A stretch of DNA of 64,000 nt from Solibacillus sp. FSL R7-0682 (GTDB lineage: Bacteria > Bacillota > Bacilli > Bacillales_A > Planococcaceae): the NCBI RefSeq assembly GCF_038005985.1, contig NZ_JBBOUI010000001.1, positions 3,182,001 to 3,246,000 of the forward strand, in the 5' to 3' direction. Under the pieces are notes generated by a model that was given only the letters and a program-made list of their open reading frames with translations, had not been told where the DNA came from and searched no databases. The number at the start of each line of letters is the position of its first letter. The stretch's first letter is position 1. Below, one piece after another: positions 7,837-63,988 of the stretch. The position numbers were made by a program, and so were the translations under genes.

Positions 7837-7872
7837 AACAAAACAGGCAATCATGATTGCCTGTTTTGTTCA
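7837..7872. terminator. Bidirectional terminator ending the lysis operon
   Basis: A 34-nt perfect palindrome with 17-bp arms meeting at TCATGA and A/T tracts on both sides. On the minus strand it ends the amidase-holin operon. The 210 bases to its left hold no convincing gene. Confidence 0.75.
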
Positions 7873-53045: not shown

Positions 53046-53840
53046 TTATTCATTCGCAATGAATGAATCATGTACTCGCTCCCAAAACGGAAATGGTCGG
53101 AAACGGGCAAAACGAACACGCTCATTTGCCACATTAAACATAATCGACTTTACATCGGTTTCGGTCATACTAATATGGTCTACCGTCATGTTAAACTGCT
53201 GCTCATTCACCGGCTTTAAAGCACAGTTGTGATGCGCTGGTAATACGAGCGAAGAACCAACCGTACGGAATACCCGATTATTAATGGAAGCCATCTCTGT
53301 AATTTGAAACGCCTGTAATGTCGGGTGAATAATAGCTCCACCAAGTGCTTTATTGTAGGCCGTACTGCCAGATGGTGTTGAAATACATAACCCATCACCA
53401 CGGAAACGTTCAAAATGTTCACCGTTCAACTCAACATCCATTACAAGCGTAACATCAGGTGATTTAATCGTTGCTTCATTGAGAGCTAAATATGTGCTTG
53501 ATTCTGAATGATGACGATGGACTTGTATTTCTAGAAGAGGATACTCTACTACATTGAATTCCCTTTTGGCAATAGATAAAACTAGCTTTTCAAGTTCAGA
53601 AGGTTTCCAATCTGCGTAAAATCCTAAATGTCCTGTATGAATTCCTACGAACGATGTTTTATCCAAACGATTCAAATAGCGATGGAAAGCGTGCAATAGC
53701 GTTCCGTCCCCACCGATTGATAGGACAATTTCAGGCTCTTCTTCATCGAATTGAAGGCCAAAATCCAGTAAATACGATTTAGCAAGCTCCATCAATTCAT
53801 TCGATTGGTCATCTCTGCGTGATTGAATTGCAAATTTCAT
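53046..53840 (-). CDS. nadK: NAD kinase
   Basis: 264 aa. GGDGTLLHA (ATP/NAD phosphate loop), NEATI, and the [21 protein letters not shown] block define NAD kinase, which makes NADP+ from NAD+. Its start overlaps the yjbM stop by 4 bases (ATGA), so the two are translationally coupled. This mirrors yjbM-nadF of Bacillus. Confidence 0.95.
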
Positions 53841-54517
53841 GACTTTTCACGCTCCTTTTCGTCAGTTGATGCATGAATAGCTGGATTTGATGCTTCTTTA
53901 AACTCATTAAAATATGCTTGTGCTTCTTGTATTTCACTACGAATGGATGACATTTCCTCATCTAATCGAAATGCCGCTTCAGCAGCACTTTGTAGTCGAT
54001 TTTTAATTTCTTCAGGGAAAACCCCTTTGTATTTATAATTAAGCGAATGTTCAATGGACGCCCAGAAATTCATCGCTAAAGTACGGATTTGAATTTCTGC
54101 CACCACAACGATGCGCCCTTGAATTGTTTCCACTGGATATTCAACAATTATATGATGCGATCGATAGCCACTTGGTTTGCTATTTGAAATATAATCTTTT
54201 TCTTCAATTACCTTCATATCATTGCGTTGACGAATAAGTTCAGTCACTGTCGCGATGTCATCCACAAATTGACACATAATGCGAACGCCCGCAATATCCT
54301 GTAGTTCATTTCCTAAACGCGCAGTTGGTTCGAATGGTATGCATTTATCACGTGACTTATCATAAATACTTGCTAAAGGCTTAACCCTTCCTGTGACAAA
54401 TTCAATGGGCGAATTCGCATTTCTAATTCCAAATTGCGAACGCATGCCCTTTAGTTTAATTTTTAATTCGTCCACTGCTTGTTTATATGGACTTAAAAAG
54501 ATTTCCCATTGTCCCAT
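53837..54517 (-). CDS. yjbM: Small alarmone synthetase (YjbM/RelQ type)
   Basis: 226 aa, only a RelA/SpoT synthetase domain. [16 protein letters not shown], the G-loop region [16 protein letters not shown] and [23 protein letters not shown] bind GTP/ATP. A C-terminal helical segment is used for tetramer formation. It makes (p)ppGpp/pGpp without a hydrolase domain. Upstream, on its own strand, lies one of two related potentially structured elements (54561-54660), the other being before mecA. Confidence 0.94.
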
Positions 54518-54560
54518 CTACAAAACCTCCCAACATGAAATAGAAGGTATACCTTACTAT

Positions 54561-54660
54561 TCCTTAGAAAGACATTTATTACGCTTAGATGGCGCACTTA
54601 ATGTCCTTACTGGCAGTCGATTAAAAAATTGTCTTATTATCGACTAAAACATGTTGTCTC
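54561..54660 (-). ncRNA. Candidate structured leader element A (upstream of yjbM)
   Basis: On the minus strand the order is a hairpin AGTCGAT...ATCGACT (54649-54655 with 54615-54621), GTAAGGACATTA, a small inner stem TGCGC/GCGTA, and CTTTCTAAGGA. AAGGACATT can pair with AATGTCTTT (9 bp). A related element with the same order lies at 62379-62488 before mecA. The hairpin arms differ between copies while remaining complementary (AGTCGAT/ATCGACT versus GTCTATA/TATAGAC), which suggests conserved RNA structure. No known motif recognised. Confidence 0.45.
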
Positions 54661-54665
54661 ATTTA

Positions 54666-55058
54666 TTATACTTCATTACGTGCAAAAAAATCGGCAAACA
54701 CATGCTCAACAGAAGTCACAAAAGATTCTCCGTAATTTCCATTCCCTTCTATATTGAACAATAAAGCTATTAATTCTTCTACAAAATTATTTAATTCAAT
54801 TCGCCCATCTTCTACGCGTAAAAAGGGTATTTGATGCTCTAATACCATATGCACTAATTGTGGCCATATTGCTTTTGAAAATTGGAGGTAACTATAGGCA
54901 TTGTTTTCTTCAATAATATAGAGAAATGCTTCATTATCTGAGTCGACGATGACTTGCCCTGTCGATTGTATTTGAATTAATTGTTTCTTTTCATTTAAAA
55001 TAAAGTGACATTCATTATGTACTGTCTCGAATTGATCGATGTTATATACGTTTCGCAC
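54666..55058 (-). CDS. yjbL: YjbL family protein (UPF0738)
   Basis: 130 aa, acidic and cytosolic, with no membrane segment. The position between yjbK and yjbM and the size match YjbL of Bacillus. Function unknown. It could be read together with yjbM, though element A and a possible second promoter lie in between. Confidence 0.75.
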   Translation of the reverse strand: MRNVYNIDQFETVHNECHFILNEKKQLIQIQSTGQVIVDSDNEAFLYIIEENNAYSYLQFSKAIWPQLVHMVLEHQIPFLRVEDGRIELNNFVEELIALLFNIEGNGNYGESFVTSVEHVFADFFARNEV

Positions 55059-55236
55059 AGAACCGAACTCCTTCTTATCAATTACTTAAAATCGCATTTA
55101 ACTTACCACCCATTACGATGGGCTGCTTTTACTAAAAGATGTTAAAATATTCTCTTCATATTTTACCATACGGAAGTTGTTTGGTGCAGAACCGTTTTTT
55201 GATTGAAGCAACAATAATTTACAAAGGATGATATAC

Positions 55237-55824
55237 GTGAATCAACACATTGAAATTGAATTCAAAAATACTTTAACAAAGCAACAATATGAAAATTTAC
55301 TCGAAGCATTTTCGGTGCAACCTTCTCAAATTCATCGGCAAACAAATCATTATTTTGACACACCTGAACAACATTTAAAAAAATTATCAAGCGCACTACG
55401 TATTCGTGAAATGGATGACATGATTGAATGTACATTAAAGGAAAAACGAGGACAGCATCAACACCTAGAAACAACGGATATTATTTCTCCAGTTGATGCT
55501 CAAAATATGCTTGCCGGTACAGAAATAAATGCGCCTTCTGTTAAAGCTCGTTTACAACAATTTAATGTGTCTTTAGCCGACTTATATTGCTTCGGAACAT
55601 TAACGACAGATCGTGTAGAAATCCCTTATGAAGGAGGATTACTCGTGTTTGATCATTCTTTTTATTTGCAGTGTGACGATTATGAGGTAGAATATGAAAC
55701 AAATGATGAAACTTTTGGAAAAAAAGTTTTCGAACAGTTTTTACATAAATATAATATTGAGCCGCAGCCTGCACAGAAAAAAATCGTGCGTTTTATGACG
55801 GCATTAAATAATCAGAAAGGTTAG
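55237..55824 (+). CDS. yjbK: CYTH-domain protein (YjbK)
   Basis: 195 aa from the GTG at 55237, 8 bases after AAAGGA. The ExExK signature reads EIEFKNTL, followed by HQTNHYFDTPEQHL-type strands and CTLKEKRG: a triphosphate tunnel metalloenzyme barrel that binds triphosphates or hydrolyses tri- and polyphosphate. In Bacillus it sits beside the alarmone synthetase YjbM, divergently, as here. The exact substrate is unknown. Confidence 0.9.
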   Translation: MNQHIEIEFKNTLTKQQYENLLEAFSVQPSQIHRQTNHYFDTPEQHLKKLSSALRIREMDDMIECTLKEKRGQHQHLETTDIISPVDAQNMLAGTEINAPSVKARLQQFNVSLADLYCFGTLTTDRVEIPYEGGLLVFDHSFYLQCDDYEVEYETNDETFGKKVFEQFLHKYNIEPQPAQKKIVRFMTALNNQKG

Positions 55825-55832
55825 GCCGAATC

Positions 55833-56600
55833 ATGGACATTACATCAATGAAGACATTATTAGAGTTACAAGCGTTACAAAACTTAAACATGTCGAACGA
55901 TTCAAATTCAAACACACTTTCATCTAATTCAACATTATTTTCTGAGCTAATGAACGACCTATTAAATGGGGAGTCTTTAAATTCATCCAATTCACTTAAT
56001 GACTTAGGTGACGTTGGCACATTACAGCAATTACTTGAAACAATGCAAACAAGCGGTTCAAACTTAGCTTCGTCTAATAGTTACATTGCTTCATTTATGC
56101 TAAATAATTCAACAAATATGAATATAGATACTTCAAGTGCACTTCAATCTGTGACATCTAAATTGCAACAATATACAACTGACTACACAGGGAAAGAAGC
56201 CTTTGAAAACTTCTTAACTGGTGCTGAGCAATACCAAGCCGAAATTTCAAAAGCAGCACAAACCTATAATATACCTGAAAAATTGATTGCTGCTGTAATG
56301 AAACAGGAATCAAACTTTAATTCAACTGCGGTAAGCTCTGCTGGCGCATCCGGCTTAATGCAATTAATGCCTTCTACCGCAAAGTTTTTAGGGGTGAGTG
56401 ACCGGTTAGACCCTGAGCAAAACATTATGGGTGGCGCAAAATATTTACGCCAAATGTTAAATCAATTTGATAATGATATTTCTACTGCCCTTGCCGCTTA
56501 CAATGCAGGTCCTGGGAACGTTAAGAAGTATAACGGCATCCCGCCATTTAAAGAAACACAAAACTATGTAAAGAACGTTTTAAACTATTTTAATGCATAA
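55833..56600 (+). CDS. yjbJ: Lytic transglycosylase (YjbJ/CwlQ)
   Basis: 255 aa. A Ser/Asn-rich N-terminal region (about residues 1-125) without a clear signal peptide precedes a C-terminal SLT domain (about 140-255), with the catalytic Glu in VMKQESNFNSTAVSSAGASGLMQLMPSTAKFLG and NPEQ/AYNAGPGNVKKY motifs. It cleaves peptidoglycan glycan strands. Bacillus YjbJ (CwlQ) has both transglycosylase and muramidase activity. It starts 8 bases after yjbK, probably one operon. Confidence 0.9.
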   Translation: MDITSMKTLLELQALQNLNMSNDSNSNTLSSNSTLFSELMNDLLNGESLNSSNSLNDLGDVGTLQQLLETMQTSGSNLASSNSYIASFMLNNSTNMNIDTSSALQSVTSKLQQYTTDYTGKEAFENFLTGAEQYQAEISKAAQTYNIPEKLIAAVMKQESNFNSTAVSSAGASGLMQLMPSTAKFLGVSDRLDPEQNIMGGAKYLRQMLNQFDNDISTALAAYNAGPGNVKKYNGIPPFKETQNYVKNVLNYFNA

Positions 56601-56755
56601 GTAATATGCCCTCTTAATTTTTAGTAGGGCACTTTATTTGTGAAAAACTTTAGACGTTGCTAGAATAATTGTATCGTCTTATTAAAGTTTTTCATTACAT
56701 ATATAGAAAAACGATTGTTTTAATGGACGAAGTAAGGCACAAAGGAGTATAACGA

Positions 56756-57154
56756 ATGAATCGAAAATATACGGTTCCATATGAGGAAATCGGTGCTGAG
56801 AAGCTTTCTGAATTAATTAACGCGTTCTACTCTAGAGTGGCGAAGCACCCTTTATTAATTCCTATTTTCCCAAAAGATTTAACGGAAACGATTCGCAAAC
56901 AAATTCAATTCCAAACACAGTATCTTGGCGGGCCAAATTTGTTTACAGAGGAACATGGTCACCCGATGATGCGTGCTAGACATATGCATTTTAAAATTAC
57001 ACCCGATCGTGCACAGGCATGGCTAGAATGTATGGCTGAGGCAATGGACGAAGTAAACTTAGATGAAAAGTTCCGCAAAGTTTACTATCAACGTCTTGTA
57101 CTTACTGCTCACCATATGGTTAATGCTGCGAATGATGAGGAGGGATTTGCGTGA
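56756..57154 (+). CDS. yjbI: Truncated haemoglobin (YjbI, group II)
   Basis: 132 aa. PYEEIGAEKLSELINAFYSRVAKHPLLIPIFP, YLGGPNLFTEEHGHPMMRARHMHF with the proximal His, and a Trp at the G8 position (QAWLECM) fit group II truncated globins. It binds O2 or NO; in Bacillus and Staphylococcus it partners with the adjacent spxH. The stop overlaps the spxH start by 4 bases. Confidence 0.93.
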   Translation: MNRKYTVPYEEIGAEKLSELINAFYSRVAKHPLLIPIFPKDLTETIRKQIQFQTQYLGGPNLFTEEHGHPMMRARHMHFKITPDRAQAWLECMAEAMDEVNLDEKFRKVYYQRLVLTAHHMVNAANDEEGFA

Positions 57155-57957
57155 ATAATATCCAACTTTTACAGCAACCAATAACACCATCTACATGTAA
57201 TAAGCCAATTGAATTATATATTTTTATCGACCCGCTTTGCCCAGAAGCGTATGCAATGCAAACAACGCTTCGTAAGTTACAAGTCGAATATGATCATTAC
57301 TTTACATGTCGGTATGTACTAAGTACGGAATTGTCTACGCTGAATTGCATGACAAGTCGTATGAAAGGCTGTGTTACAGGGGCAGAATTGGATATTACCC
57401 ATCCAGCATTACCTTCCATTGCAATTAAAGCCGCAGAATTACAAGGAAAGCGTGCAGGATTCCGCTATTTAAATAAAGTGCAGGAAGTAACGGCTCTTAA
57501 AACACGCAACATTCATTCACATGCAACACTTTTAGAAATTGCCCAGCAAGTCAACTTAGATATGAATGAATTTACAACGGATTTTGGTTCTAAAGAGGCC
57601 GCTCGTGCGTTCCAATGTGATTTATACTTAACGCGGGAAATGGAAGTTGATGAAATTCCAAGCATCGTATTTTTTAATGAGCGGATAGAGGATGAGGGCT
57701 TAAAGGTAAGCGGATCTTATAATTACGAAGTTTATGAACATATTTTAATGGAATTATTAGACGAACAATTAATTCGTCAACCAGTTCCAGCTCTTGATGA
57801 CTTATTTGACCGTTTCAGTACATTAACAACTGCGGAAGTGGCAGAAATTTATTCCATTAACGAAGCCACAGCAGAGCGTGAATTAAAGAAACGTATGCTA
57901 CTCCAAAAAGTAGAACGTATTATGACAGAAGATCTTACAATGTGGCGCGCAAAATAA
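57151..57957 (+). CDS. spxH: SpxH (YjbH), ClpXP adaptor for Spx
   Basis: 268 aa, GTG start overlapping yjbI. DsbA-like fold with FIDPLCPEAYAMQTTLRKL in place of a CxxC and a His/Cys-rich N-terminal segment typical of YjbH. It binds Spx and presents it to ClpXP; stress makes it aggregate and frees Spx. The target gene spx lies 5 kb to the right in this window. A terminator follows. Confidence 0.92.
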   Translation: MNNIQLLQQPITPSTCNKPIELYIFIDPLCPEAYAMQTTLRKLQVEYDHYFTCRYVLSTELSTLNCMTSRMKGCVTGAELDITHPALPSIAIKAAELQGKRAGFRYLNKVQEVTALKTRNIHSHATLLEIAQQVNLDMNEFTTDFGSKEAARAFQCDLYLTREMEVDEIPSIVFFNERIEDEGLKVSGSYNYEVYEHILMELLDEQLIRQPVPALDDLFDRFSTLTTAEVAEIYSINEATAERELKKRMLLQKVERIMTEDLTMWRAK

Positions 57958-57997
57958 CAACTATTCATTGATTTTTGGTATTATATTTATTTTATCC

Positions 57998-58024
57998 AGC
58001 CCCTTTTAAAAGGGGCTTTTTTTT
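57998..58024 (+). terminator. Terminator after spxH
   Basis: AGCCCCTTTTAAAAGGGGCT followed by seven T's. Confidence 0.88.
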
Positions 58025-58027
58025 GAA

Positions 58028-58142
58028 CAACAAAAGAGGCGTCTCTATCCTCGACAGATAGGACGCCTCTTTTTCACAAAGGGGATGGGAGAAATGTTCA
58101 CGTTCAAACAAAGGGGTGTATGTTTGTTATGTGATTTATTTC
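58028..58142 (-). ncRNA. roxS: RoxS (RsaE) regulatory small RNA
   Basis: Read on the minus strand: GAAATAAATCACATAACAAAC, then C-rich stretches ACACCCCTTTG and CTCCCATCCCCTTTGTG, then a 3' terminator (AGAGGCGTC...GACGCCTCT, plus 58032-58074) with a T tract. The sequence and its place between spxH and pepF agree with RsaE of Staphylococcus and RoxS of Bacillus, a redox/NO-linked sRNA whose C-rich loops base-pair with ribosome sites of central-metabolism mRNAs. The 5' end is set by comparison with memory of RsaE. Confidence 0.9.
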
Positions 58143-58145
58143 ACA
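58130..58145. promoter_or_regulatory. Rex-type operator at the roxS start
   Basis: TGTGATTTATTTCACA is an almost perfect inverted repeat matching the Rex consensus TTGTGAA-N4-TTCACAA. It straddles the predicted roxS 5' end. In Bacillus subtilis roxS is repressed by the NADH sensor Rex (established), so this site supports the identification. Confidence 0.7.
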
Positions 58146-58213
58146 TTTACAACTTTATCATGGAATAATAATTGTTGCAACGAATCAAGCATAGTTTCAC
58201 AAATTCGCCATAT

Positions 58214-58247
58214 AGTAAGCGTTTGCATACAATTGTAAGCGTTTTAA
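58214..58247. promoter_or_regulatory. Two adjacent cre-like sites upstream of roxS
   Basis: AGTAAGCGTTTGCA (58214-58227) and TGTAAGCGTTTTAA (58234-58247) each match the CcpA cre consensus TGNAANCGNWWNCA at all but one position. They lie about 70-105 bases upstream of the roxS start. Direct CcpA control is inference. Confidence 0.5.
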
Positions 58248-58398
58248 TTGGGTTTATTTTTCTATAAAAATGAAAAAATCGTGCGTAAATGCTGTTATCA
58301 ATAGCTTCTTACTTAACTTAAAATTTCCCTCTACAATAAAAGTCACTAAAAAGTCGACGGGTTAATTCATTACGAAAACGTCATTTTTTATGAAAAAT

Positions 58399-58432
58399 TC
58401 AAAAAAACGCATCTAAAAAATGATGCGTTTTC
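58399..58432 (-). terminator. Terminator after pepF
   Basis: On the minus strand AAACGCATC and GATGCGTTT are followed by TTTT. Confidence 0.8.
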
Positions 58433-58439
58433 ACGTAAA

Positions 58440-60248
58440 TTAATTATTTAATAATAACTTTTCAAGCTCATTTAATTTTTCTTCAAATACTTTACATGCT
58501 AGTGCAATCGGTTCTGGTGATTCCATATCAACACCAGCTGCTTTTAATACTTCAATTGGGAAGTCCGAGCACCCTGCTTTTAAGAAGTTATTAATATAAC
58601 GTTCAACTGCTGGTTGGCCTTCTTCTAAAATTTGCTTACTTAAAGCTGTTGCTGCTGATTGACCAGTAGCATATTGGTAAACGTAATAATTGTAGTAGAA
58701 GTGCGGAATACGTGCCCATTCAAGACCAATCTCTTCATCTACTGTCATAGCCTCACCAAAGTATTGCTTATTTAAGTCATAGTAAATAGATGTTAGCTTA
58801 TCTGCTGTAATCGCTTCGCCTTTACGGTCCATTTCATGAATGATGTGTTCGAATTCTGCAAACATTGTTTGACGGAATACCGTACCACGGAAACCATCTA
58901 ACCATTGATTTAATAAGTAAATCTTTTGTTTGTCATCTTCTAATGTATTCATTAAATAATCAAACAATAGCTCCTCATTACATGTAGAGGCAACTTCTGC
59001 AACGAAAATTGAGTACCCAGAGTATTGGTATGGTTGATTTTCACGTGAATAATAGCTGTGCATTGAGTGACCAAACTCATGGGCTAATGTGTAAAGGTTA
59101 TTTACGTTATCTTGCCAGTTCATTAATACGTATGGGTTAGTACCAAACGTACCTGAAGAATAGGCACCACTGCGCTTACCTTTGTTTTCAAGCACATCTA
59201 CCCAACGACTATCTAAACCTTTTTGTACAATCTCCTGATATTCACTACCGAGTGGTGCAAAGCTATCTACCATGATTTTCTTAGCTTCTTCATACTTTAC
59301 TTCCATTTTCACTTCTTTTACAAGTGGCGTAAATAAGTCATACATATGCAGTTCATCCAAACCTAATACTTGTTTGCGAAGTGCTACATAGCGATGTAAG
59401 ACAGGTAAAAAATCATGCACTGTAGAAATAAGCTGATCATATACTTTTTCTGGAATAAAGTTATTACTTAAAGCAGCATGACGTGCTGATGAGTAATTTC
59501 GAATTTTTGCATTCGCATTTTGCGCTTTTACATTTCCAGCTAATGTAGAGGCGAACGTATTTTTAAACTGGCCATATGTTTTGTAAATCGCTTTAAATGC
59601 CGACTCGCGTACTTCACGGTTATCACTTTCTAGCATTAAAATAAAGTTACCATGCGTTAATTGCACTTCTTCGCCATTTTCATTCATAATTTTTGGGAAC
59701 TCTAAGTCTGCATTGTTTAATGCACTAAATGTTGCACCCGATGAAGAAGATACTTCAGCCATTTGAGCAAGTAGCTCTTCTTTATCTGCTGATAATACGT
59801 GTGGACGCCCTATGTTAATTTCTTTTAAGCTTTGTTTATATAGTTGTAAAGGCTCGTAATTTTCTACATAGCTATTTAATGTCTCTTCATCTAAGCTTAA
59901 AATTTCTGGTGTAATAAATGACCAAGTAGCACCAACTTTTGCCGCGACTGATTTAACACGTCCATCTAAGTCTTGGTACTTACTATTTGCCGTATCTTGA
60001 TCATGCTTTAAGTGCGAATAAACATATAGTTTATGTAATCGCTCCATTAGTGTATCTGAAAAATGTAAGACACTGTATAAACTTTCCGCGCTTTCCGCTA
60101 CTTTTCCTTTAAATTGAGACGCTTGCTCAGATAATTTTTCTACATCCTTTAACTCTGCTTCCCACGCTTCATCTGATTCAAAAATTGGTGTTAAGTCCCA
60201 CGTTAATTGCTCTGGTACTTCTTCACGCGTCAAAATTGATTTTGCCAT
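58440..60248 (-). CDS. pepF: Oligoendopeptidase F
   Basis: 602 aa, full length for the M3B family. Zinc motif HEFGHSMHSYYS and a later Glu supply the active site; the N-terminal helical half forms the substrate channel. A cytosolic endopeptidase that cleaves short peptides. In Bacillus, YjbG is this gene and lies between coiA and roxS/spxH, exactly as here. Confidence 0.95.
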   Translation of the reverse strand: MAKSILTREEVPEQLTWDLTPIFESDEAWEAELKDVEKLSEQASQFKGKVAESAESLYSVLHFSDTLMERLHKLYVYSHLKHDQDTANSKYQDLDGRVKSVAAKVGATWSFITPEILSLDEETLNSYVENYEPLQLYKQSLKEINIGRPHVLSADKEELLAQMAEVSSSSGATFSALNNADLEFPKIMNENGEEVQLTHGNFILMLESDNREVRESAFKAIYKTYGQFKNTFASTLAGNVKAQNANAKIRNYSSARHAALSNNFIPEKVYDQLISTVHDFLPVLHRYVALRKQVLGLDELHMYDLFTPLVKEVKMEVKYEEAKKIMVDSFAPLGSEYQEIVQKGLDSRWVDVLENKGKRSGAYSSGTFGTNPYVLMNWQDNVNNLYTLAHEFGHSMHSYYSRENQPYQYSGYSIFVAEVASTCNEELLFDYLMNTLEDDKQKIYLLNQWLDGFRGTVFRQTMFAEFEHIIHEMDRKGEAITADKLTSIYYDLNKQYFGEAMTVDEEIGLEWARIPHFYYNYYVYQYATGQSAATALSKQILEEGQPAVERYINNFLKAGCSDFPIEVLKAAGVDMESPEPIALACKVFEEKLNELEKLLLNN

Positions 60249-60311
60249 TGATCATTTCCTCCATCCTACTATTCCGAAATTCGAAATTATAAGTCTATTT
60301 AAACAATTTAG

Positions 60312-61439
60312 CTATCCAAATGCAACCAATTCGTTGTATAAGAATTGAAATAATTGCACTCGTGAAACTTCATCCGTCACATTTTCAATTTCAAGCTTTT
60401 TTAAAAGCGCTAAATAATAAGTAACTGCTTTTTTACTATTCCCCTGGCCTTTAATTTTTGCCCATTGCATGAAATATGTTATAGCCTGTACATTCATCTT
60501 TTGTGGCGTCAACTTGTGGCAGTGCATGAAATAAAAAAGCTGTACTTGCCATTCCACACAAAACACCTCAAAATCTTGCGCAAATGAAACAGGAATCCCA
60601 ATAAAATCCGGCATCCTTAATGGTGTTAATTGCAGTTCATAAACCGCTCGTAAAAAGTCATCATTGACCCCTTTTTTGCTTAACAATAACCGTGAATGTA
60701 CATATTGATTACGATACGCAATAAAGCGTAACATTAGGGCATTAAAGATTTGCACGGACATAACTTTCGGTAGAAAAAAAGGGAAGCTTTGTTGCATAAG
60801 TGGAAGCGCTTGAATGACCCCATAGTATTGTAGACGGTGTATTGGAATTAAATTGCTTACATAGTAAAACATTTCACTATGTACATCATACGTTATTAAA
60901 TAACGCTGCTTTTTATACATTTGAATGTATTGAGAATTTGTATAATTTATCGATAGTTTCGTTAATCCTAACGCTTTAAATCGAGCATTAGGTGTTTGGA
61001 TAAGCCATATCGGGTGAATGTCGATTTCTGTGTAGCCTTTTGAACGTCGTTGAACTACTTCAGGAGGAATTTTACTACACTGAAATTCAATTGCAAATTG
61101 TTGGTCATTATGTGAGATAAGAAGATCTGGTCTTTGCTGAATTTCAGATAAAAATGGTTCTAATTCTGTCTGTACATTACGTTTTGAAAAGAAGGTAAAT
61201 AATTGCTGTTTCCCCATCAGATGCGCTAGAGTCTCCCCTTCTGAAAAGAAAGAATCACATTCGCTACTTTTTCGATGCGCAAAATGCGGTATTTTTATTT
61301 GGCCTGCCTTTAAAAGTAGTTGCTCTTTACATTGTGGGCAAAAAAATTTCTCCTTATACTTTCGTTCTAGTAGCATTTCTCTAGATAGATCTTTCGTAAT
61401 CTGAAAAAGCTCTTGATGTTCAGTTAATGCAACGAGCAT
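60312..61439 (-). CDS. coiA: Competence protein CoiA
   Basis: 375 aa from the ATG at 61439 behind AGAGGTGG. An N-terminal zinc-finger-like region (FFCPQCKEQLLLKAGQIKIPHFAHRK) and a nuclease-like domain (ERPDLLISHNDQQFAIEFQCSKIPPEVVQRRSKGY), as in CoiA (Bacillus YjbF). It is induced with the competence genes and acts in processing of incoming DNA. Divergent family sequences are normal for the C-terminal half. Confidence 0.9.
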   Translation of the reverse strand: MLVALTEHQELFQITKDLSREMLLERKYKEKFFCPQCKEQLLLKAGQIKIPHFAHRKSSECDSFFSEGETLAHLMGKQQLFTFFSKRNVQTELEPFLSEIQQRPDLLISHNDQQFAIEFQCSKIPPEVVQRRSKGYTEIDIHPIWLIQTPNARFKALGLTKLSINYTNSQYIQMYKKQRYLITYDVHSEMFYYVSNLIPIHRLQYYGVIQALPLMQQSFPFFLPKVMSVQIFNALMLRFIAYRNQYVHSRLLLSKKGVNDDFLRAVYELQLTPLRMPDFIGIPVSFAQDFEVFCVEWQVQLFYFMHCHKLTPQKMNVQAITYFMQWAKIKGQGNSKKAVTYYLALLKKLEIENVTDEVSRVQLFQFLYNELVAFG

Positions 61440-61623
61440 ATACACCACCTCTTTTTACTTATCGTACCGGCAGATAACAAAGGTTTCAACTTATTAAAAA
61501 TAACTATTGGCAATATTTTTTTTTTGCGCTTTTTTGAAGAGTAATAGAATTGAGGTAACATTGATTTTTCGATTGACACTCCCACATATTGTCGTTCCTA
61601 ATTAAGTCCACTAGTATAGAATC

Positions 61624-61656
61624 CCAAAAAAGACCGCCCTTTATTGGACGGTCTCT
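61624..61656 (-). terminator. Terminator after mecA
   Basis: On the minus strand AGACCGTCC and GGGCGGTCT are followed by TTTTTT. Confidence 0.85.
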
Positions 61657-61667
61657 ACCTTGTTCTT

Positions 61668-62315
61668 TTAAAAGAAGTTATTAATTGTTTCAAAGCACTT
61701 TTCTGGAATAATTGCTTCTGCGTATTCTTCTAGACGATGAATCGTCAACTTCGAAGATGCTAAATATTCGCTACATAGAGCAACGATATCTTTTGCTTCT
61801 TGTAACTCTATATCTTGTAAATCTACAAATAAATAAAAATTGTCTTCCCATTTATAAAGCGCCGATTTCACACCAAATTGTGCGGCACGTGCTGCTAACG
61901 GTACTAACTCATCTATATCTTTAAAACGGAAACGTGCATTTTCAATTTGCTCTGCCTCTTTAGCTGACTTCCCTAACGAATTAAATAGCGATTCTTCCAT
62001 TTCATTTAATTGATCTGTTATATGAAGGTCATCCTCGAAAGAACCTGCCATCGATGAAGTATCGGAATCATTATTGACAGATGCACGTGTGACAACGACC
62101 TCTAACCCAATCTCAGATGCATTAATATGAATCCAAATGGGACCATCTAAATCGAAGTAATCGTCAGTGTTTACTTCGCCAATAACATCCCAGAAAAGCT
62201 CTTCACCTTTCGCGCGATTGTACCAAATTTCTTCACGGCTATAACCGCGGTCCTCTATATCACTATACGTAATAAAAAGTTTTAACGTATTTTCATTAAT
62301 GCGTTCGATGTCCAT
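61668..62315 (-). CDS. mecA: Adaptor protein MecA
   Basis: 215 aa. MDIERINENTLKLFITYSDIEDRGYSREEIWYNR is the substrate-recognition domain; the C-terminal half (FRFKDIDELVPLAARA...LYKWEDNFYLFVDL) binds ClpC. MecA targets ComK and, in some species, ComS or Spo0A for ClpCP. An acidic linker separates the domains. A potentially structured element (62379-62488) precedes it. Confidence 0.95.
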   Translation of the reverse strand: MDIERINENTLKLFITYSDIEDRGYSREEIWYNRAKGEELFWDVIGEVNTDDYFDLDGPIWIHINASEIGLEVVVTRASVNNDSDTSSMAGSFEDDLHITDQLNEMEESLFNSLGKSAKEAEQIENARFRFKDIDELVPLAARAAQFGVKSALYKWEDNFYLFVDLQDIELQEAKDIVALCSEYLASSKLTIHRLEEYAEAIIPEKCFETINNFF

Positions 62316-62378
62316 TAGACCTCAACTCCCTTCACAGTCATTCATAGAACTCCATGTCACTTCAAAAAACCATTATTT

Positions 62379-62488
62379 CTCTTTAGAAAGGCATATGTTA
62401 TGCGTTAAAGCATCAAATAATGTCCTTACCCATGTCTATATAAAGTTACTTCCCTATAGACTAAATAGTTTAAACAGCATGTCGCTCT
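62379..62488 (-). ncRNA. Candidate structured leader element B (upstream of mecA)
   Basis: Same order as element A: hairpin GTCTATA...TATAGAC (62434-62440 with 62455-62461), GTAAGGACATTA, small inner stem ATGC/GCAT, CTTTCTAAAGA. About two thirds of the 50-nt core matches element A, with the blocks GTAAGGACATTA and CTTTCTAA invariant. It lies 64 bases upstream of the mecA start. It could be a 5' UTR regulator or two copies of a small mobile repeat. Confidence 0.45.
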
Positions 62489-62764
62489 ATAACATCGGCA
62501 CCAAGTACTTTATAAAACTGTCATAAAGTATCTATAACTCTATTGTATGATGTCTTGCACTAAAATGAAAAGGAAAAACGTTGGGGAAATAAAATTATTT
62601 GAATTATTGAAATTGTATTGTACCTTCTCCTCGAAATCAAGCGTAAAATAAACAGAGCGAGGAAGATGGAATAAAGAAAATGCCAAAGAAGGCGCATAAT
62701 AAGTGCAAATCAGCTGATTCAAAAACATAGCTTATAAAAATAAATATGTTACATCCTATTCTAA

Positions 62765-63729: not shown

Positions 63730-63988
63730 CAAGATTATGAAAAACTATGACGAAGAGTAGTACATTTAACGCGAATGTTTAGAGAGTCTGTGGTTGGTGC
63801 AAACAGATCATTCATTAAATGGAATGGACTTCCGAGTTAGCTTTATGAACGTTTTCCTAGTAGTAAAGCTCGTCCCTTCACGTTACGAAGAAGAGTGGCC
63901 TTTACGGGCAAGCTGGGTGGTACCGCGGATTCAACATCATTCGTCCCTTCTATAGTTATATAGAGGACGCATGATGTTTTTTGTTTTT
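63730..63988 (+). promoter_or_regulatory. T-box leader, Trp specifier (gene downstream of window, probably trpS)
   Basis: Stem I contains AGTA (63757-63760) and, on the 3' side, GGAATGGACTTC with TGG at 63825-63827 in the specifier position (followed by a purine and then the stem). The AGAGAG and GGTGCAAACAG blocks match conserved stem I loops. The T-box itself is AGCTGGGTGGTACCGCGG (63911-63928), followed by a terminator stem (CATCATTCGTCC/GGACGCATGATG, about 63935-63976) and T's. The order trpS - spx - mecA in Bacillus supports trpS. The base meant to pair with the tRNA discriminator is T, not the C expected for G73 of tRNA-Trp. Confidence 0.88.

Follow-up and report, generated by a model that had tools for sequence, protein, structure and literature searches.

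Dispersed copies of a two-hairpin repeat, probably mobile as single-stranded DNA, in the relQ and mecA leaders of a Solibacillus genome

In a stretch of 64,000 nucleotides from Solibacillus sp. FSL R7-0682 (contig NZ_JBBOUI010000001.1; hereafter the window), the 5' leaders of relQ (yjbM), which encodes a small alarmone synthetase, and of mecA, which encodes the ClpC adaptor, contain two related elements that a preliminary description had read as a potential leader RNA of stress and competence genes. Both stretches are members of a dispersed repeat family and do not represent a leader class. They very probably belong to a mobile repeat that is non-autonomous, has two hairpins and measures approximately 80-96 bp. 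Its most likely mode of movement is as single-stranded DNA (ssDNA), in the manner of IS200/IS605 insertion sequences, with a putative HUH transposase (Y1, IS200/IS605-like) acting in trans.

Two copies of one unit in the window

The two elements have the same order and orientation, as originally described; both are on the minus strand, which is the sense strand for relQ and mecA, and their 47-nt cores (GTAAGGACATTA...CTTTCTAA) are identical at 34 of 47 positions, whereas the best other ungapped match to the first core on either strand of the window reaches 28/47. The motif GTAAGGACATTA occurs exactly twice in the window, and the gapped core pattern exactly twice in the whole genome. The arms of the first hairpin, P1 (AGTCGAT/ATCGACT and GTCTATA/TATAGAC), agree with the earlier reading, and a second hairpin, P2 (AAGGACA.../...TGTCTTT), follows 3' of it. 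Each copy forms a single unit of T-rich start, P1, short linker, P2 and end CTTTCTAA; the general layout of the repeat consists of a T-run, P1 (GTNGAT...ATCNAC), the linker ACATAAG, P2 with a bulged base that was retained in the covariance model, and the end TCTAA. The relQ leader with copy 1 folds better than its shuffled versions (z -3.2), and the mecA leader with copy 2 barely so (z -1.3; 22 of 200 shuffles equal it).

The location in the leaders of yjbM and mecA stands, and both gene calls are confirmed by NCBIfam equivalogs (Table 1). The earlier failure to assign the elements to a riboswitch or leader class is also consistent with Rfam 15, which places no known family on either stretch, be it in a general scan of the whole window or in scans of the two stretches (E up to 3); the sole listing there is a miRNA at 14.8 bits, against a gathering score of 90. 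A further scan of repeat copies listed only a miRNA (23.9 bits against a gathering score of 85).

Table 1. Features of the window; positions count from its first nucleotide
Feature	Position	Strand	Context	Evidence
Repeat copy 1, 86 nt	54564..54649	minus	relQ/yjbM 5' leader	R1 58.6 bits (copy itself in R1); alignment
P1 hairpin of copy 1 (AGTCGAT...ATCGACT)	54615..54645	minus		sequence, fold, alignment
P2 hairpin of copy 1 (AAGGACATT...AATGTCTTT)	54568..54608	minus		fold, pair counts
Repeat copy 2, 84 nt	62383..62466	minus	mecA 5' leader	R1 68.4 bits (copy itself in R1); alignment
P1 hairpin of copy 2 (GTCTATA...TATAGAC)	62434..62461	minus		sequence, fold, alignment
P2 region of copy 2 (AAGGACAT...ATGCCTTT, one A-C mismatch)	62387..62427	minus		sequence, alignment
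relQ/yjbM, small alarmone synthetase	53837..54517	minus		NCBIfam NF053588 (equivalog YjbM), 325.6 bits, above cut-off
mecA, ClpC adaptor	61668..62315	minus		NCBIfam NF002644 (equivalog MecA), 225.7 bits, above cut-off
Presumed relQ -10 (TATAAT)	54665..54670	minus	15-nt spacer, then repeat copy 1	read from sequence
Promoter-like site of mecA (TTTTCA, 18 nt, TACAAT)	62542..62571	minus	~75 nt 5' of repeat copy 2	consensus scan
Hairpin (GAAATAGT...ACTATTTC)	54537-54563	minus	directly 5' of relQ Shine-Dalgarno sequence	largely kept in 15 aligned leaders
Predicted mecA leader hairpins (GATACTT/AAGTATC and one over the Shine-Dalgarno region)	62320-62550	minus	mecA leader	common to 13 congeners (L127-L139)
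RsaE/RoxS small RNA	58030-58144	minus		Rfam 81.8 bits
T-box leader	63738-63951	plus		Rfam 139.3 bits

Stem covariation

A covariance model, R1, was built from 17 copies, comprising the two window copies and 15 copies from a relative, genome G015; L018, which has no P1, and L004 were left out. Matches of R1 to these 17 copies exist by construction, since they built the model. In a MAFFT alignment of the 17 copies, with the structure drawn by hand, 13 of 30 pairs show two-sided changes, and none of 500 shuffles reached the covariation score; the number of pair types was matched by 7/500 shuffles, and slid pairings were far worse. When 51 matches from seven genera were fitted to R1 (one row being a weak opposite-strand match in L013), two-sided changes appeared in 28/30 pairs, against 0/500 shuffles, and the covariation suspected from the two window copies is borne out. 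Compensation of this kind means that the folded form is important, or else that hairpin-templated repair restores it; it does not demonstrate a regulatory RNA. A typical (composite) G015 copy reads TTTTAGTAGATAAGAAAGTATAACTTTCTTATCTACATAAGTAAGGACATCATCTCGCCCTATTTTGGGCGAGATGTGTCTTTCTAA, and the whole unit sits within differing flanks; no terminal inverted repeats were found at the ends of the repeat alignments. Another idea, mimicry of the 16S rRNA 3' end by CTTTCTAA, was dropped because many other Solibacillus copies carry TTTTTCTAA with compensated stems.

Distribution of the repeat family

A survey of the family (250 genomes) found GTAAGGACAT...CTTTCTAA in three members: twice in the genome of the window, once in the congener G032 and 57 times in G015. 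The reversed pattern, used as a control, matched once in G015 and once in a different genome. R1 has 13 matches at E<=0.1 in the window's own genome, five of them at E<=1e-4, and at least 150 in G015, a count that may include a few opposite-strand matches of one copy. Every one of the 16 genomes of the genus, that of the window among them, has matches at E<=0.1, with 2-32 per congener; R1 E-values are rough, and the weakest congener matches are possibly due to chance. Under stricter filters, the repeat was found order-wide in 26/261 genomes (own included) and 5/19 genera at E<=1e-4, and class-wide, on a thinned draw of genomes, in 6/398 genomes (own included) and 4/146 genera. Carriers include Solibacillus palustris MA9 (G120, locus L069), a Lysinibacillus metagenome-assembled genome (G053, locus L142), and members of two other families of the class (G427 and G368 in one; G489, G575 and G591 in the other). 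In these two families the units of 87-96 bp combine P1, the linker ATAAG and similar ends with a different P2; the P1-linker stretch GTAGATAAGAAAGTATAACTTTCTTATCTACATAAG is identical between G015 and G427 copies. Plasmid records yielded no match to three copies or to a 3.1-kb locus, phage records no match to one copy tested, and viral contigs no match to two patterns.

Insertion at empty sites and in the relQ and mecA leaders

The clearest insertion event is found in G015, where the IS200 copy L081 contains the repeat and its 97%-identical paralogue L078 represents the empty site. TTTT-ATC in L078 corresponds to TTTT-(82 bp)-ATC in L081; the repeat was inserted 3' of a T-rich target that was neither duplicated nor lost. 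The small mobile repeat that the preliminary description had named as its main alternative is thus supported by dispersal and by this empty site, but the terminal repeats expected for it were not seen.

At mecA, none of 15 congeners has an R1 match at E<=1; the element is present in the window genome alone, and the mecA leader of the congener G083 can be aligned across the empty insertion point. At relQ, the window copy lies directly 3' of the presumed -10, and a degenerate copy occupies the same position in G083. Among the other congeners, seven have weak R1 matches (E 0.0027 to 0.56) 5' of the relQ promoter, two (L107, L113) have the same sequence there by eye without a listed R1 match, and the leaders of the remaining five (L104, L105, L111, L116, L118) have no copy. 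The repeat shows no conserved association with orthologous genes, and it came to lie in the leaders of relQ and mecA by insertion. The proposed leader or riboswitch class tied to stress and competence genes fails because the matches are scattered throughout G015 and the congeners and because the mecA element is absent from all 15 congeners.

The presumed relQ -10 is absent from the list of the promoter scan; AGTATAAT is present by eye in the relQ leaders of 13/15 congeners. At mecA, the consensus scan returned 5 sites where 2.5 are expected by chance, and TACAAT is likewise present by eye in 13/15 congener leaders. As the insertions lie between the presumed promoter and the ribosome-binding site, relQ and mecA mRNAs should carry the hairpins.

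Both leaders have further hairpins of their own (Table 1). The hairpin next to the relQ Shine-Dalgarno (SD) sequence, aligned in leaders L104-L118 without L109, is not settled by covariation because its stems are unchanged or show one-sided changes alone; the shared mecA leader hairpins, aligned without L140 and L141, show two-sided changes in 2/27 pairs.

Site choice and orientation relative to replication

Siting was analysed in a 1.2-Mb sample of G015, whose first 20 tiles were picked around known copies and whose other 40 are mostly consecutive. After removal of two opposite-strand overlaps, 110 of 112 matches were used, 105 of them with flanks and neighbours. Only two of the 110 copies overlap an open reading frame (ORF; >=80 aa). 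Of the 105, 81 lie 3' of a same-strand ORF, most commonly 30-50 nt past the stop (30/81). The 38-nt left flank has a minimum free energy (MFE) below -8 kcal/mol in 59% of the 105 copies, compared to background rates of 8.7% at 1255 intergenic positions drawn at random and 19.5% at 7850 TTTT sites in intergenic DNA; many flanks look like terminator stems entering T-runs, and from their sequence these strong hairpins are read as probable intrinsic terminators. In G427, the left 38 nt fold below -8 kcal/mol in 8/11 copies (no same-genome control), and at congener sites in 9/26 (35%). For siting and start distance, the own-genome and congener sets comprised 10 of the 13 own copies, those with a fetched locus, and 26 congener loci; L004, L042, L045 and L048 were left out, as were the same-site loci L060, L061, L071, L072, L074 and L075, chosen by eye. 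A separate neighbour subset comprised 63 of 92 R1 matches, 60 of them with both neighbours; matches scoring below ~47 bits, those overlapping another on the opposite strand and the two in the window had been removed. As a side observation, two of three IS200 copies inspected in G015 (L080, L081) lie, by eye, directly behind terminator-like stems with T-runs.

The copies also follow replication. With the G015 terminus placed, on visual inspection, at 1.87 Mb, the point at which both GC skew and orientation change, 94/110 copies are replication-oriented, compared to 773/1038 ORFs (p=0.004). Among predicted terminators, 37/236 leading ones but 2/95 lagging ones have a copy (p=2.3e-4), in a test where the copy's own T-run can help terminator calling on either strand. 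For other genomes, orientation was approximated as plus in the first half of a contig and minus in the second, using listed matches alone (24/27 in G083, 24/28 in G114, 16/17 in G144 and 13/13 in the own genome); by this proxy, 13/13 copies in the own genome and 23/24 in G083 are oriented as expected. GC skew at the fetched loci of the own genome fits the proxy, with one locus near zero.

A single-stranded DNA route and the search for a mobiliser

IS200/IS605 elements, in the accessible part of PMC7290912, lack terminal inverted repeats (TIR) and target-site duplications (TSD), have hairpin ends, insert 3' of a tetra- or pentanucleotide, and show a bias towards the lagging-strand template. An IS200/IS605-like route is inferred here because the lack of TIR and TSD, the hairpin ends, the T-rich target and the lagging-template polarity fit that pattern. 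Along this route, the strand with T-run, P1, P2 and TCTAA would be handled as ssDNA on the lagging-strand template, the two hairpins could serve as end marks for the trans-acting HUH transposase, and terminators may offer harmless, exposed T-run targets; in the genome of the window, two such insertions would have landed in leaders, one at relQ and one at mecA, each between the presumed promoter and the ribosome-binding site.

Several observations weigh against this route. No mobiliser was found, and Y1_Tnp is absent from five of seven genomes tested (G000, G114, G083, G120, G032); the other two have one RAYT-like gene (G144) and four matches (G015). Where the ends of these Y1 elements were read, including those of three IS200 copies, they are unlike those of the repeat. 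The foot of P1 follows one base after the T-run, unlike the textbook left end of IS200/IS605. Only one clean empty site lacking a duplication was observed. Both window copies are without a left stem (MFE 0.0 and -3.0); counting these two, 7/10 own copies have none at the threshold of -8. The orientation bias is weaker in G114 (17/24) and G144 (11/16), and in the part of PMC7290912 considered, 22 IS605 copies of one genome have no strand preference.

An autonomous element with the same ends was also sought. Repeat motifs are absent at the Y1 loci L078, L079, L080 and L082, and L081 has them just as its inserted copy; no ends shared with an autonomous Y1 element were found. Searches for half-elements across 1.2 Mb of G015 returned 50 left and 36 right halves that stand alone, most of them weak matches. 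The halves at E<=0.01 (14 left, 21 right) contain no same-strand left-right pair 150-5000 nt apart; those at E<=10 contain two, one between matches that each lie beside their own decayed partner, and one of matches with E 2.9 and 6.5. An autonomous copy was not found by these half-element searches. Among the half matches listed (10 left, 6 right), four left ones enter a second repeat. This second G015 repeat is palindromic, GC-richer and roughly 165 bp long (L188:2740-2994, L101:18543-18641, L174:5232-5393, L085:13109-13264); several copies share TTTTAGTGGATAAGAAAGTATAACTTT, whole or in part, as their left end and continue into GTCTAGGCATTCGCGCC...GGCGCGAATGC or a variant. It has 27 nhmmer matches in the 1.2 Mb, query included, and three of its loci have no Rfam match at gathering scores.

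The reverse transcriptase (RT) domain RVT_1 is absent from G015, G114 and G120 and present in G000, G083, G144, G032, G159 and G125; TnpB is absent from seven of nine genomes and present in G144 and G015, so that G144 has all three. Neither Y1 nor RVT_1 presence tracks the repeat, with G114 and G120 lacking both, and TnpB does no better. Since G015, with most copies, has Y1 but not RVT_1, the DNA route is slightly favored.

Alternative explanations

Some insertions of mobile origin may have been retained as structures of the 5' leader that modulate translation or the stability of the mRNA. This is rather unlikely, though later co-option of the copies at relQ and mecA is conceivable. Of 36 sampled Solibacillus copies, 20 lie no more than 100 nt ahead of a start on the same strand that has an SD sequence, compared to 34/110 in G015 (p=0.010), and 18/33 when three shared-site rows are removed (p=0.022). 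Measured against random intergenic positions of G015 in leading orientation (242/657), the excess is marginal (p=0.033, or 0.044 without shared sites); moreover, the sample is limited to the few top-scoring copies of each genome, and the control was drawn from a different one. The excess is a hint of co-option that biased sampling could also yield. In two Solibacillus genomes (L024, L066), a copy ends, by eye, exactly at the SD sequence of a gene that, from the start of its protein, resembles purM; the stems of these two copies have diverged yet remain paired, and their left flanks are dissimilar.

Spread by reverse transcription of the repeat's RNA, through a group IIC-like intron RT with stem-loop targets and lagging-strand priming, is improbable. 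The siting behind hairpins and the missing TSD are compatible with it, and RVT_1 occurs in six of the genomes named above; yet it is lacking from three copy-rich ones (G015, G114, G120), and a group II ribozyme does not fit in an 82-nt RNA. Group IIC introns themselves, as described in PMC10190682, recognise their target by binding a DNA stem-loop on its 5' side, and they exploit lagging strands.

A classical miniature inverted-repeat transposable element (MITE) of a DDE transposase, which size, copy number and intergenic placement would suit, is very improbable in view of the missing TIR and the lack of target duplication at the clean empty site. Least tenable is a dedicated cis-regulatory leader, riboswitch or protein-binding, of stress and competence genes, for which the position of both copies between presumed promoter and ribosome-binding site and the strong covariation speak; most copies lie elsewhere, the congener loci are as described above, and copy number and empty orthologous sites largely refute it.

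Meaning and comparison with known repeats

Two apparent regulatory leaders thus turn out to be copies of a repeat family, and covariation, which alone is often taken as proof of a regulatory RNA, is here borne by a mobile repeat. The family provides a testable case of terminators as landing sites with replication polarity. Extending the preferred ssDNA reading, one could tentatively envisage, with considerable doubt, small ssDNA mobile elements of Bacilli that home to intrinsic terminators in a polarity set by replication. Such elements would conserve P1 and linker from family to family while exchanging P2, would rely on a mobiliser not yet described, and would in some cases be co-opted as 5' leaders, as at relQ and mecA.

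We rate the repeat as a variant of REP/PATE-like repeats that is found neither in Rfam 15, for the copies scanned, nor in the open-access literature searched; the latter search covered titles and the starts of abstracts, with subscription journals and ISfinder outside its scope. It resembles the BOX/RUP-type repeats of Streptococcus pneumoniae, by description alone, in being small and interspersed in a Firmicute (PMC3049150, in part). Group IIC introns are similar in their sites behind stem-loops and on lagging strands (PMC10190682, same part); the repeat differs in its length of ~80-96 bp, its three copy-rich genomes without RT and its lack of a ribozyme with intron-encoded RT, and no Rfam intron family falls on the copies scanned. 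The TIR and TSD of DDE-type MITEs are not present. With REP/GTAG and CGTC palindromic repeats it shares intergenic palindromes and compensated stems, and CGTC repeats also seem to be without a dedicated transposase (PMC3733652, accessible text). For GTAG repeats, a passage there names Proteobacteria, Cyanobacteria, Chloroflexi and the PVC group; the text never uses the word "Firmicutes". In contrast to the single REP hairpin with an unpaired 5' GTAG tag and a linked RAYT gene, the repeat joins two unlike hairpins, always in the same order, into one unit, with GTRG in the stem and no unpaired tag; the 3.3-kb locus of the RAYT-like gene in G144 contains no repeat copy by motif search. Palindrome-associated elements (PATE), the ends-only derivatives of IS200/IS605, are different in that no autonomous insertion sequence with the same ends was found for the repeat, that P1 begins one base past the T-run, and that some carriers have no Y1; they are similar in being short and made of hairpin ends alone, in lacking TIR and TSD, and, according to the family features in the accessible part of PMC7290912, in having a T-rich target 5' of the left end and the lagging-template bias that the repeat also shows, though less strongly in G114 and G144.

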